NCBI RefSeq assembly: GCF_022808855.1
Contig: NZ_JAKZLF010000002.1
Coordinates: 1 to 64,000 of the forward strand
Source: Anaeromyxobacter soli
Lineage (GTDB): Bacteria; Myxococcota; Myxococcia; Myxococcales; Anaeromyxobacteraceae
Reading direction: 5' to 3'
DNA: 64,000 bases
Shown here: in pieces, positions 36,391-40,405 of the stretch
Layout: each line of letters opens with the position of its first letter
Position numbering within the stretch: the first letter of the stretch is position 1
Notes under the pieces: model-generated
The model's input: only the letters and a program-made list of their open reading frames with translations
What the model was told of the DNA's origin: nothing
Databases searched by the model: none
Position numbers and translations under genes: made by a program

Positions 36391-38679
36391 ATGCCCCGCT
36401 CGCGGATCGAGCGCGTCTTCGGCGCGATCGTGGCGCTCCGCGTCCCCATCCTCGTGCTCTACGCGCTCGCGGTGCCGGTGGCCGCGTGGCTCGCCGCGGG
36501 GATCCCGTCGGAGGGGGCCATCGACCGGCTCGTGGTCCCCTCGGACCCGGACTTCGTCGCGACCCGCGAGTTCCAGCGCATCTTCCCCGAGCGCCCGACC
36601 GTCATGCTGCTCCTCGAGGCGGACGAGCCCTTTCGCCCGCGCGCGCTCGCGCAGGTCGCCGCCGTGGAGGACGCCCTGCGGGCGCTGCCGGGCACGACGC
36701 CCGTCTCGATCCTCGACGCGTACGCGCGGGCGCGCCCCGGAACGTCGCCGACCGCCGACCCCGCCGCGGCCGAGGCGCTCCGCCGGTTCGCGAGCGGGAC
36801 CGGCTTCTTCGCACGGCAGGGGCTCGTCGGCGACCGCTTCCTGGGGGTCGCGGTGACGTTCGACGCGGCGACGTCCGCCGCGCGCGACGCCGCGCTCGCC
36901 CGGATCGACGCGGCGGTGGAGCGGTCGCGCGGCGACGCCCTCACGGGCGTGCGCCGCGTGGGCGGGCCCTACGTCGACGCCTGGATCGAGCGCGAGTCGC
37001 GCGAGGCGTCGCGGCGCAACTTCCCGGTGTTCGGGCTCCTCGTGGTCGCGGTCGCGCTGTTCCTCTACCGCTCGGTGCGCGCGCTCGTGGCGCTCCTGCT
37101 GACGCTGGGCGCGGCGGTGGCCCTCGCCACCGCCGCGGGGCGGCTCCTCGGGTTCCCCTTCACGATCGTCTCGACCCTCGTGCCGCTCACGGTCCTCGTG
37201 ACGACGCTCGCCTCGCTCGTGTACCTGCACTCGCGGTTCGTGGACGCCCCCGAGGGCGTGGACCCCGCCCGTCACCAGCTCGCCGCGCTCGCGAACAAGC
37301 TCCTGCCGGTGACCGCGTCCAGCGCCGCCGCCGTGCTCGGCTTCGCGGCGCTCGCCGTCTCCCGCATCCGCCCGGTGCGCGAGATGGGGATCTGGACCGC
37401 CACCGGGCTCGCGATCGCCTGGGTCGTGGTCTTCACGCTCTTCCCCGCCCTCCAGCGCGCGCTCCGCACGCCCACGCGGCGGACCGTGGAGATCCGCGCC
37501 CACCTGTACGACCGGCTCGCGGCGGCGCTGCCGCGGTTCACCTGGCGCTGGCGCTGGCCGCTCGTCGCCGGGGCGCTGGGCCTCGCCGCCGCCGGGCTGG
37601 TGGCGCTCCTCGGCGTGCCCGGGCGGCTCGCGCCCATGGGCGTCGGGCTCGACGTGCTCGAGTACGTGGACCCCGCCTCGCCCGTGCACCGGGACCTGGT
37701 GTTCTTCCGCCGGAACGTCGGAGGGCTGAACGTCGCGCGCCTGTGGGTGCGGACGCCGCCCGGCGCCGTCACCGATCCCGAGGTGCTCCGGCCGCTCGAT
37801 CGGTTCACCCGGCGCGTGGAGGCGATCCCCGGCGTCACCTCGGTCGTCGGACCGACCTCGATCCTGCGGATGCGTCGCTACGCCGCCGGCCAGGGCGAGT
37901 CGCTCCCGGAGGACCCGGCCGCGTTCGCCGCGGCGGTCGCGGACCTCGAGCAGCTCCTCCTCGCCGGGCCCGAGCTCCGCGGCTTCGTCGACGTCGGGAC
38001 GCTCGCCAGCGCGCAGCTCACCGTCGTGTTCGAGCGCGGCGACGGGCCCGGCGTGGCGGCGCTCACCGCCGCGGCGCGCGATGCGTGGGAACGGACCGTC
38101 GCGGAGGCGCCCGCGCTGCGCGGCGCCGAGCTCCGGGTCGTCGGGGAGTCGATCCTCGCCGGGAAGGTCGGGGCGAGCCTCGTGCCGACGCTCGGCGAGA
38201 GCTTCGCCATCACCGCCGCGCTCATCTTCGCGGCCTTCCTCGCGGTGTTCCGGTCGGCGTCGGCGCGGCTCATGGCCATGATCCCATCGGTGTTCGCGAT
38301 CCTCGTCACGTTCCTCGCGATGCGCCTCGCGGGCGCGTCCCTCAACGTGGCGACGATCCTCGTCGCCACCACCCTGCTCGGGACCACCGAGAACGACCCG
38401 GACCACTTCGTCCACCACCAGCACGCGGGCGGGGGGGCCGGGGGCCTCGACGGCGCGCTCCGCCACACGCTCCGCGTGGCCGGCCGGGCCATCGTGTTCG
38501 CGACCCTCATCGACGCCGCGGGCTTCCTCGCGCTCGCCCTCTCGCGGTTCCCGCCCCTCCGCCAGTTCGGGATGGTCACCGCGGGCGCGTTCCTCCTCGC
38601 CATGCTCGCCGACTTCACCGCGCTGCCGGCGGCGCTCTGGATCGTGCGGCGCGAGGCGCCGGAGAAGCCCCCAGCCTGA
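36391..38679 (+). CDS. RND superfamily (MMPL-type) exporter
   Basis: A 762-residue protein with the two-fold RND/MMPL layout: span 1 (VFGAIVALRVPILVLYALAV), a large extracytoplasmic loop (about 45-210), spans 2-6 with LLVVAVALFLYRSVRALVALL, then a repeat of the pattern from about residue 380. The second half has FAAFLAVFRSASARLMAM, LLGTTENDPDHFVHH and AIVFATLIDAAGFLAL. It belongs to the predicted exporters of COG1033, which move lipids, hopanoids or other hydrophobic compounds by proton motive force. There is no HAE1-type partner (no membrane fusion or outer-membrane gene) in the window. The ATG at 36391 starts right before the first span. The substrate is unknown. Confidence 0.88.
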   Translation: MPRSRIERVFGAIVALRVPILVLYALAVPVAAWLAAGIPSEGAIDRLVVPSDPDFVATREFQRIFPERPTVMLLLEADEPFRPRALAQVAAVEDALRALPGTTPVSILDAYARARPGTSPTADPAAAEALRRFASGTGFFARQGLVGDRFLGVAVTFDAATSAARDAALARIDAAVERSRGDALTGVRRVGGPYVDAWIERESREASRRNFPVFGLLVVAVALFLYRSVRALVALLLTLGAAVALATAAGRLLGFPFTIVSTLVPLTVLVTTLASLVYLHSRFVDAPEGVDPARHQLAALANKLLPVTASSAAAVLGFAALAVSRIRPVREMGIWTATGLAIAWVVVFTLFPALQRALRTPTRRTVEIRAHLYDRLAAALPRFTWRWRWPLVAGALGLAAAGLVALLGVPGRLAPMGVGLDVLEYVDPASPVHRDLVFFRRNVGGLNVARLWVRTPPGAVTDPEVLRPLDRFTRRVEAIPGVTSVVGPTSILRMRRYAAGQGESLPEDPAAFAAAVADLEQLLLAGPELRGFVDVGTLASAQLTVVFERGDGPGVAALTAAARDAWERTVAEAPALRGAELRVVGESILAGKVGASLVPTLGESFAITAALIFAAFLAVFRSASARLMAMIPSVFAILVTFLAMRLAGASLNVATILVATTLLGTTENDPDHFVHHQHAGGGAGGLDGALRHTLRVAGRAIVFATLIDAAGFLALALSRFPPLRQFGMVTAGAFLLAMLADFTALPAALWIVRREAPEKPPA

Positions 38680-38744
38680 GCCCGCAACGGCCCGGGATCC
38701 CTCCCCGACCTCCCACCGCTCGCCGAGGCCCCACCGCTCGGTGG

Positions 38745-38773
38745 TTGTGAAACGCGACTGGGCCGGATATGGT
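38745..38773 (+). promoter_or_regulatory. Candidate sigma-70 promoter of the DAHP synthase gene
   Basis: TTGTGA and TATGGT are separated by 17 bases, each matching the consensus hexamer at four of six positions, in a locally AT-richer stretch after the RND gene. Transcription would start near 38780, giving a leader of about 200 bases ahead of the coding region. Confidence 0.4.
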
Positions 38774-38779
38774 GGCTCC

Positions 38780-38860
38780 GTGATCCTTCGGTTCGTGAGC
38801 GCGTATCGATTTAGCAGCCCCCCGCCCCGGCCTGGGCGCTGGGTGGGCTCCTACGCGTAG
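38780..38860 (+). CDS. Putative aromatic-rich leader peptide
   Basis: A 26-codon frame from GTG to TAG lies 123 bases upstream of the chorismate mutase-DAHP synthase gene. It reads in part LRFVSAYRFSSPPP and PGRWVGSYA, with Phe, Tyr, Phe, Trp and Tyr among 26 residues and Trp and Tyr close to the stop. In-frame GTG codons at 38747 and 38741 would extend it and add another Trp and Tyr. A weak GGTGG precedes the GTG at 38780; that start would be leaderless if the proposed promoter is right. A ribosome that slows at these codons would sense Phe/Tyr/Trp supply. This is inference from composition and position; translation is unproven. Confidence 0.4.
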   Translation: MILRFVSAYRFSSPPPRPGRWVGSYA

Positions 38861-38889
38861 CGAAGGACCACCCCGCACCATCGAGATCG

Positions 38890-38974
38890 CTCGGGCCTGG
38901 ACGGGGGGGACGCTTCGCTCCTGCTCCCGCCTCACTCCGTCCGCCGCTCCGGACGGCCGCCACCTTCGCCCGAG
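38890..38974 (+). promoter_or_regulatory. Possible attenuator structures in the DAHP synthase leader
   Basis: Between the leader frame and the gene are a 7-bp hairpin, CCGTCCG and CGGACGG around CCGCTC (38937-38956), and a long-range pair, CTCGGGC (38890-38896) with GCCCGAG (38968-38974). The latter arm includes the first bases of the GAGGG that precedes the GTG start, so the pairing could mask the ribosome binding site. No T-run follows the hairpin. Confidence 0.3.
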
Positions 38975-38983
38975 GGCTCAGCC

Positions 38984-40405
38984 GTGAACGACGAAAAGAA
39001 ACGTGGAATCTCGCTGCCGGACTGCATGACGCTGCGCGACGTGCGCGCGTCCATCGACGACGTGGACCGCCGCATCGTCGCCCTGCTCGCCGAGCGCCGC
39101 GGCTACGCGCTCCAGGCGGCCCGCTTCAAGAGCGCCGCAGACGGCGTGAAGGACCCCGCCCGCGAGGAGCAGGTCGTGCGGAACGTGCGGGCGCTCGCCG
39201 GCGAGGAAGGCATCGAGCCCGAGCTCGTCGAGACGCTCTACCGCGACATGATCGCCGGCTTCGTCCGCGTGGAGCTCACGTCGGCGGGGCACCGCGGTCC
39301 TCCCGCCCTGGAGAACCTGAACGTCGCCGCGTTCGACGCGATGCTGCCGCCCGAGGAGGTGAAGCTGCGGATCCCGGCCTCGGAGCGCGCCGCGCGGACG
39401 GTGGCCGAGGGGCGCCGGACGATGGAGGCGATCCTCGACCGCCGCGACCCGCGGCTCGCGGTCGTCGTGGGCCCGTGCTCGATCCACGACACCGACGCCG
39501 GGCTCGACTACGCGCGGCGCCTGCGCGAGCTCGCGGACGAGGTCTCCGACACGCTGTACCTCGTCATGCGCGTGTACTTCGAGAAGCCCCGCACCTCCGT
39601 CGGATGGGAGGGGCTCACGAACGATCCGCGGATGAACGACTCCTTCCAGGTGAAGGAGGGCATGGAGCTGGCCCGCCGCTTCCTCCTGGAGGTGGCCGAG
39701 CTCGGGCTCCCCACCGGGACCGAGGCGCTCGATCCCATCGCGCCCCACTACCGCGGCGACCTCATCACCTGGACGGCGATCGGGGCGCGGACCTCCGAAT
39801 CGCAGACGCACCGGAACCTCGCCTCCGGGCTCTCGACCCCCATCGGCTTCAAGAACGGCACCGACGGCGAGGTCGACGGCGCGGTGAACGCGATCCTCTC
39901 CGCCGCGCGGCCGCACGCTTTCCTGGGCATCAACGACCAGGGGCGCTCGTCGGTCATCCGCACCCGCGGCAACCGGTACGGCCACCTCGTCCTGCGCGGC
40001 GGCGGCGGCCGGCCGAACTTCGACAGCGTCTCGGTCGCCATCGCCGAGCAGGCGCTCGCGAAGGCCGGGCTCCCGCAGACGATCGTCATCGACTGCTCGC
40101 ACGCGAACTCCTGGAAGAAGCCGGAGCTCCAGCCGCTCGTGATGCGCGACGTGGCGAGCCAGATCCGCCAGGGGAACCGCTCCATCGTGGGCGTCATGAT
40201 GGAGAGCTTCCTCGAGACGGGGAGCCAGCCGATGTCGGCGGAGCTCTCGCAGCTCAGGTACGGGTGCTCGGTGACGGACCCCTGCCTCGGCTGGGACCAG
40301 ACGGTCGAGGCGCTGCGCGAGGCCCGCGCGCTCCTGCGCGAGGCGGTGGACGAGCGCCGCCAGGCGGGCGCGCCCGCCCCCGCGCAGCGCGCCACGGCGA
40401 GCTGA
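38984..40405 (+). CDS. Chorismate mutase-DAHP synthase fusion
   Basis: A 473-residue bifunctional enzyme of the shikimate pathway. Residues about 15-98 are an AroQ-type chorismate mutase helix bundle; aligned with the E. coli domain, Arg21, Arg38, Lys49, Asp57, Arg60 and Glu61 are kept. From about residue 110 there is a class I (E. coli AroF/G/H-like) 3-deoxy-7-phosphoheptulonate synthase, with VVVGPCSIHD, MRVYFEKPRTSVGWEGL, SQTHRNLASGLSTPIGFKNG, IVIDCSHANSWK and IVGVMMESFLETGSQ, covering the PEP, E4P and metal sites. Fusion of the mutase may allow prephenate or chorismate feedback on entry into the pathway. The GTG start is preceded by GAGGG. It is monocistronic, with leader elements upstream and a strong hairpin downstream. 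Confidence 0.95.
   Translation: MNDEKKRGISLPDCMTLRDVRASIDDVDRRIVALLAERRGYALQAARFKSAADGVKDPAREEQVVRNVRALAGEEGIEPELVETLYRDMIAGFVRVELTSAGHRGPPALENLNVAAFDAMLPPEEVKLRIPASERAARTVAEGRRTMEAILDRRDPRLAVVVGPCSIHDTDAGLDYARRLRELADEVSDTLYLVMRVYFEKPRTSVGWEGLTNDPRMNDSFQVKEGMELARRFLLEVAELGLPTGTEALDPIAPHYRGDLITWTAIGARTSESQTHRNLASGLSTPIGFKNGTDGEVDGAVNAILSAARPHAFLGINDQGRSSVIRTRGNRYGHLVLRGGGGRPNFDSVSVAIAEQALAKAGLPQTIVIDCSHANSWKKPELQPLVMRDVASQIRQGNRSIVGVMMESFLETGSQPMSAELSQLRYGCSVTDPCLGWDQTVEALREARALLREAVDERRQAGAPAPAQRATAS

Follow-up and report, generated by a model that had tools for sequence, protein, structure and literature searches.

The CM-DAHPS locus and its leader frame

The window, a stretch of 64,000 nucleotides of Anaeromyxobacter soli DNA, carries at positions 38984-40405 a gene whose product of 473 amino acids shows domain matches to a chorismate mutase (CM_2) fused to a DAHP synthase (DAHP_synth_1), called CM-DAHPS below. 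This enzyme feeds the synthesis of phenylalanine and tyrosine and is not free of phenylalanine itself (10 Phe in 473 residues). The gene 5' of the leader region encodes an MMPL-family transporter and ends at 38679; CM-DAHPS and the leader elements of the window described below are on the plus strand. A second DAHP synthase of the genome (G000:C1:240655-241764), 74% identical, has no copy of the leader and apparently lacks the mutase domain, since the match spans only residues 101-468.

In the region between both genes, a frame of 26 codons runs from a GTG at 38780 to a TAG at 38860 and encodes MILRFVSAYRFSSPPPRPGRWVGSYA. A preliminary description of this DNA had pointed to this frame as an aromatic-rich leader peptide, extendable to 37 or 39 codons. 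The frame is kept in relatives and is part of a leader (38768-38909) conserved in Anaeromyxobacter. The extensions do exist, the longest reaching in frame a GTG at 38741 (39 codons), but the longer starts (38741 and 38747) precede the predicted start of transcription (around 38780) and are not conserved in relatives, so the 37- and 39-codon forms were discarded. The promoter candidate proposed for the frame, TTGTGA (38745-38750) and TATGGT (38768-38773) separated by 17 nt, is present and conserved in relatives, with equal spacing in loci L032 and L114, and was absent from a strict consensus scan because it matches at only 8 of 12 positions. In each of the three species that carry the leader before CM-DAHPS, the GTG follows the TATGGT box at a distance of exactly 6 nt, indicating that the leader mRNA is probably leaderless, and a TATnnT-like box is located 6-8 nt 5' of the ATG or GTG start codon in other Anaeromyxobacteraceae.

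The Shine-Dalgarno region of CM-DAHPS (GCCCGAGGG, 38968-38976) includes the GAGGG at 38972-38976. As had been noticed, a long-range pair could cover part of it: CTCGGGC (38890-38896) is complementary to GCCCGAG (38968-38974). No T-run terminator, a class feature of intrinsic-terminator attenuators, was found between the leader and CM-DAHPS, in agreement with the preliminary description; an intrinsic terminator was thus rejected, as no GC-rich hairpin with a T-run precedes the gene.

The same leader is present in two further Anaeromyxobacter species that have the fusion (proteins 95% and 86% identical; L032/L003 and L004). The segment 38804-38913 is 97% and 91% identical in these species, and the remaining intergenic DNA has diverged. 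The three species show almost no differences from TATCGATTTA through GGACGGGGGGG, with diverged intergenic DNA adjoining this block, and the leader block is more conserved than the CM-DAHPS gene downstream. The expected conservation upstream of related fusion genes was therefore found in two further Anaeromyxobacter species but did not extend to other genera, where no leader was found before the fusion genes L005, L006 and L007. Hence, the leader does not come with the fusion gene in general.

Distribution of the leader and its association with srmL

The element recurs in eight of the nine Anaeromyxobacter genomes searched, the ninth being 66% complete; together with the conservation of 38804-38913, this exceeds what chance would give. 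In a DNA search of the family, five more Anaeromyxobacter species were found to have one copy per genome, away from DAHP synthase genes. In these five species, as well as in srmL-carrying Myxococcaceae, the leader precedes srmL, whose product belongs to NCBIfam family NF051887 ('PheS-related mystery ligase SrmL', a name that states no function) with 432-541 bits against a curated cut-off of 300. The initial proposal of a leader peptide before the fusion gene, with a codon that senses an aromatic amino acid, is supported by its conservation before that gene in two further species and by its recurrence before a PheS-like gene.

Among 195 Myxococcota genomes surveyed, 43 carry srmL, and the leader or a reduced form of it was present before all 43 genes; the reduced forms of the diverged loci L206 and L207 and the remote form of L205 were identified by eye. 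When the same 195 genomes were scanned with the core pattern CGATTTAGCNGCCCCCCG, allowing one mismatch, the core was detected in 41 of them, at srmL leaders, at the three CM-DAHPS leaders and at two stray one-mismatch sites, compared to one match for the reversed pattern used as control. Core matches are therefore located essentially only before srmL or CM-DAHPS. A repeat or mobile element was rejected, as there is one copy per genome, at these genes. The exact 32-base core had no match in viral contigs, and neither the leader peptide nor its RNA had a match in NCBIfam, Pfam or Rfam.

In the survey of 195 genomes, no srmL was found in the three that carry the CM-DAHPS leader, and the CM-DAHPS locus differs from the srmL locus. 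In one of the three (G003), two genes homologous to neighbours of srmL in other genomes are separated by about 0.5 kb, in a genome with neither srmL nor a second leader. The ancestral association of the leader was probably with srmL, and today it stands before CM-DAHPS in three species without srmL; the simplest history would be that one lineage lost srmL and re-used the leader for CM-DAHPS, a direction that we infer.

Within Anaeromyxobacter, srmL (G001, G002, G004, G005 and G006) and the CM-DAHPS fusion (G000, G003 and G007) were mutually exclusive, each of these eight genomes having just one of the two, in every case behind the leader.

SrmL is PheRS-like, with tRNA-synt_2d and FDX-ACB domains; it keeps the motif-2 arginine region (VYRRD) and motif 3 (GMGLDR) and shows HPY where PheS has its FPF motif. 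The 43 Myxococcota proteins (loci L169-L207 and L139-L145) contain one Phe in 15,935 residues, within a C-terminal extension, compared to 13-19 Phe per 240 residues in the homologous PheS catalytic core of the same phylum. SrmL does contain Tyr, Trp, Cys, Met, Asn and Lys. Amino-acid biosynthetic enzymes are known to show low cognate-amino-acid bias (PMC4209129), and the absence of Phe from SrmL is an extreme form of it: in both cases a protein needed in starvation avoids the scarce amino acid, although in SrmL the absence is essentially complete and the protein is synthetase-like and not a biosynthetic enzyme. As a Phe-free protein encoded behind a leader with an invariant Phe codon (see below), SrmL matches the expectation for a function required once Phe-tRNA has run out.

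That the leader accompanies a ligase-like gene in all of 43 genomes could also be expected if the leader peptide were a substrate or partner of SrmL and modified by it. This is very improbable, as three species without srmL retain a near-invariant leader before a different gene and the peptide before the sensor is not under amino-acid selection.

Candidate sensor codon and RNA structure

The leader peptides MHLVVSARRFSRPPAPFGSREAVLFD, MILLTCQRRFSRPPSPTRCREAVLRR, MILVNATRRFRSPPPRTGRWVGSRAR and that of the window have in common an Arg-Phe pair at residues 9-10 or 10-11, encoded by CGA-TTT (Arg10-Phe11, 38807-38812, in the window). The TTT codon was invariant in the 42 rows of alignment A1, usually as CGA-TTT, and TTC never takes its place, whereas TTT is rare in ordinary genes, amounting to 1 of 61 Phe codons in three genes of the window (60 TTC) and 21 of 200 in PheS regions (179 TTC). 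The Trp and Tyr codons near the end of the frame, taken initially as sensors of general aromatic supply, are not common to relatives (they are lost, for example, in MILVNATRRFRSPPPRTGRWVGSRAR and MASSIVTRRFSSPPPRTGRRVGTRAR), and of the five aromatic residues of the 26-codon frame only F11 (TTT) is kept. Given this loss and the single invariant Phe codon, sensing of Trp, Tyr or general aromatic supply was rejected.

The distance from the start codon to the sensor is 24 or 27 nt in most leaders, shrinks to 21 and 9 nt in the two reduced ones, which are the most diverged, and is, for the second sensor copy of duplicated leaders, 81 nt in G001 and G005 and 78 nt in G002; all these values are multiples of three.

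The duplicated leaders are those of G002, G005 and G001 (L174, L179 and L142, respectively), in which the sensor segment is tandemly repeated within the leader ORF. The duplication produces two R-[YF] motifs (RRYCGPSSRPGA...RRFSGPPSRPGA); it is of 54 nt, in frame, in G005 and G001, and in G002 the repeat is 3 nt shorter. The reduced leaders upstream of srmL in L206 and L207 encode MPHLISLRFRRPRV and MTLRFR before the stop, each with a TTT and, 3' of it, a strong hairpin (z -3.2 and -2.8). In one species (L181:1248-1461), five instead of six C follow the sensor, so that the rest of the frame is shifted with CGA-TTT intact.

No peptide-level selection was detected on codons 2-8 (omega ~1.08, no lower than in column permutations), and purifying selection on the peptide was rejected for these codons. 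This bears on an arrest-peptide leader, in which the nascent peptide would halt the ribosome on a small molecule (an antibiotic or an SrmL-related metabolite) and not on charged tRNA. After the sensor the peptide is rich in proline (PPPRP, PPAP) and shows good conservation inside families, and even the remote member L205 keeps FTDPASPLGCR, as such a leader would require, but this conserved stretch after TTT coincides with RNA helices, two srmL leaders stop soon after the sensor, and a synonymous TTC is never found. We consider an arrest peptide unlikely, since the invariance of TTT, the triplet distances and the unconstrained codons 2-8 fit a sensor-codon leader better.

The minimum-energy fold of the leader is one long-range helix in two parts, also apparent in the alignment. 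P1 pairs 38818-38824 (CCCCCCG, which in nearly all relatives begins about 5 nt 3' of TTT) with 38902-38908, its aligned 3' strand being CGGGGGGG (38902-38909), and P2 pairs GGCCTGGGCG (38829-38838) with CGCTCGGGCC (38888-38897), the latter including the possible anti-Shine-Dalgarno CTCGGGC. The hairpin is larger than the 7 bp of the preliminary description, as 38818-38838 pairs with 38888-38908. In a 42-sequence alignment, P1-P3 were paired in 82.2% of the cells compared to 47-64% for slid versions, and changes on both sides of a pair were detected in 67 cells compared to 19.8 ± 4.4 in shuffles, mostly in P2, where the covariation is strongest (7 of 10 pairs changed on both sides). The fold in the window is only mildly better than shuffles (z -1.84), and divergent relatives show a similar long hairpin with z of -2.0 to -4.0. 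RNAalifold alone, on a MAFFT alignment, picks a local hairpin and not P1/P2; as both use the same C strand, two mutually exclusive structures are possible.

Strong structure and covariation, together with an invariance of CGATTTAGC that exceeds coding needs, would also be found in a pure RNA element, such as a riboswitch or a tRNA-binding leader, with the short frame incidental. Such an element is improbable considering that nearly every member has a start codon on or adjacent to the predicted transcription start, that the distances from start to sensor are multiples of three and that the 54-nt duplication of G001 and G005 is in frame. T-box leaders, located upstream of synthetase and biosynthesis genes, respond to the charging state of tRNA; the leader described here is, in contrast, probably translated and would not bind tRNA directly. 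A scan of the window against Rfam gave no family at gathering thresholds, T-box included, and a T-box or other known RNA family was rejected on this basis.

The spacer from TTT to the helix, of about 5 nt, has a length typical of frameshift sites. If the helix stimulated programmed frameshifting at TTT, this could in principle couple the leader to the downstream gene, and in the window and L114 the +1 frame ends on a TGA that overlaps the CM-DAHPS start. However, in many relatives the +1 frame ends far from the gene, and the frame of the gene relative to the leader varies among species (0, 1, 2). A frameshift into the downstream gene was thus rejected, and programmed frameshifting as a whole has very little probability.

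The anti-Shine-Dalgarno duplex is present in L113 and L114, and in Myxococcaceae CCTCTCG can pair with CGAGAGG; duplex energies compared to those of shuffled leaders were suggestive only. Masking of the Shine-Dalgarno, as proposed earlier, is possible, yet partition-function folding with simulated ribosome positions revealed no consistent change in its accessibility. With blocked folding, the unpaired values were 0.19 for a ribosome stalled at Phe and 0.21 for one arriving at the stop, so a Shine-Dalgarno switch by blocked folding is unsupported.

A putative phenylalanine-sensing attenuator

From the above results, this region is likely to function as a ribosome-mediated attenuator leader for phenylalanine, which it would most likely sense in the form of charged tRNA-Phe. 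A short frame with a codon for the sensed amino acid lies upstream of the gene, its translation being indicated by conservation of the frame, and the combination of an invariant Phe codon, a conserved hairpin and a downstream gene that is usually srmL, with its almost Phe-free product, suggests that the genes are probably switched on when phenylalanine runs out. Transcription would start at or very near the GTG, allowing immediate translation of the leader, and the ribosome would meet the slow CGA-TTT pair just 5' of the base of the P1/P2 helix. With enough Phe-tRNA it would proceed to the TAG, whereas with scarce Phe-tRNA it would stall at TTT, altering the choice of helices and increasing expression of the downstream gene. 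We infer that Phe-tRNA is the signal and stalling the ON state, with an output either on the Shine-Dalgarno or on transcription termination without a T-run; candidate outputs include the Shine-Dalgarno, T-run-less termination, Rho and mRNA stability. Points against this reading are the missing T-run terminator, the lack of a consistent effect of simulated ribosome positions, the local hairpin chosen by RNAalifold, the mild z score of the fold in the window and the broken frame of L181.

Phe-codon leader peptides are known from the pheM-pheST and pheL-pheA attenuators of enterobacteria. As in these, a short leader ORF with Phe codon(s) precedes a PheRS or Phe-pathway gene, and helix formation probably depends on the position of the ribosome. 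The present leader differs in having one invariant Phe codon instead of a run, a leaderless start and no T-run terminator, and it belongs to another phylum and is unrelated in sequence. Several tandem regulatory codons are typical of the class, although not strictly required, and only one invariant Phe codon is present here. In a modelling study that names pheA among the attenuators, several regulatory codons were predicted to give sensitive control (PMC1183508); the single codon is thus either a point against an attenuator or a sign of a different output. With respect to the SrmL (NF051887) leaders, in which srmL is the usual downstream gene, the genome of the window differs in having no srmL and CM-DAHPS in its place.

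As a tentative idea, the leader and srmL may constitute a bootstrapping circuit, in which the disappearance of charged tRNA-Phe, for instance when PheRS is inhibited, would stall the ribosome at the single Phe codon and turn on a Phe-less synthetase-like protein that restores tRNA-Phe charging or otherwise handles tRNA-Phe; one Anaeromyxobacter lineage would then have re-used the sensor for the first enzyme of aromatic synthesis.

In the open-licence literature, full-text searches turned up no publication about SrmL or about attenuation by leader peptides in myxobacteria, and no such leader for a CM-DAHPS fusion was found, as judged by titles and abstracts. The uncertain 26-codon frame becomes a member of a leader family with dozens of members, and a testable mechanism is offered for Myxococcota, for which no leader-peptide attenuator was found described in that literature. 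It also gives a functional clue to the unexplained ligase SrmL, encoded behind a Phe codon and itself nearly without phenylalanine, and shows one putative regulatory leader in use for two genes that are unrelated but both concern the same amino acid.
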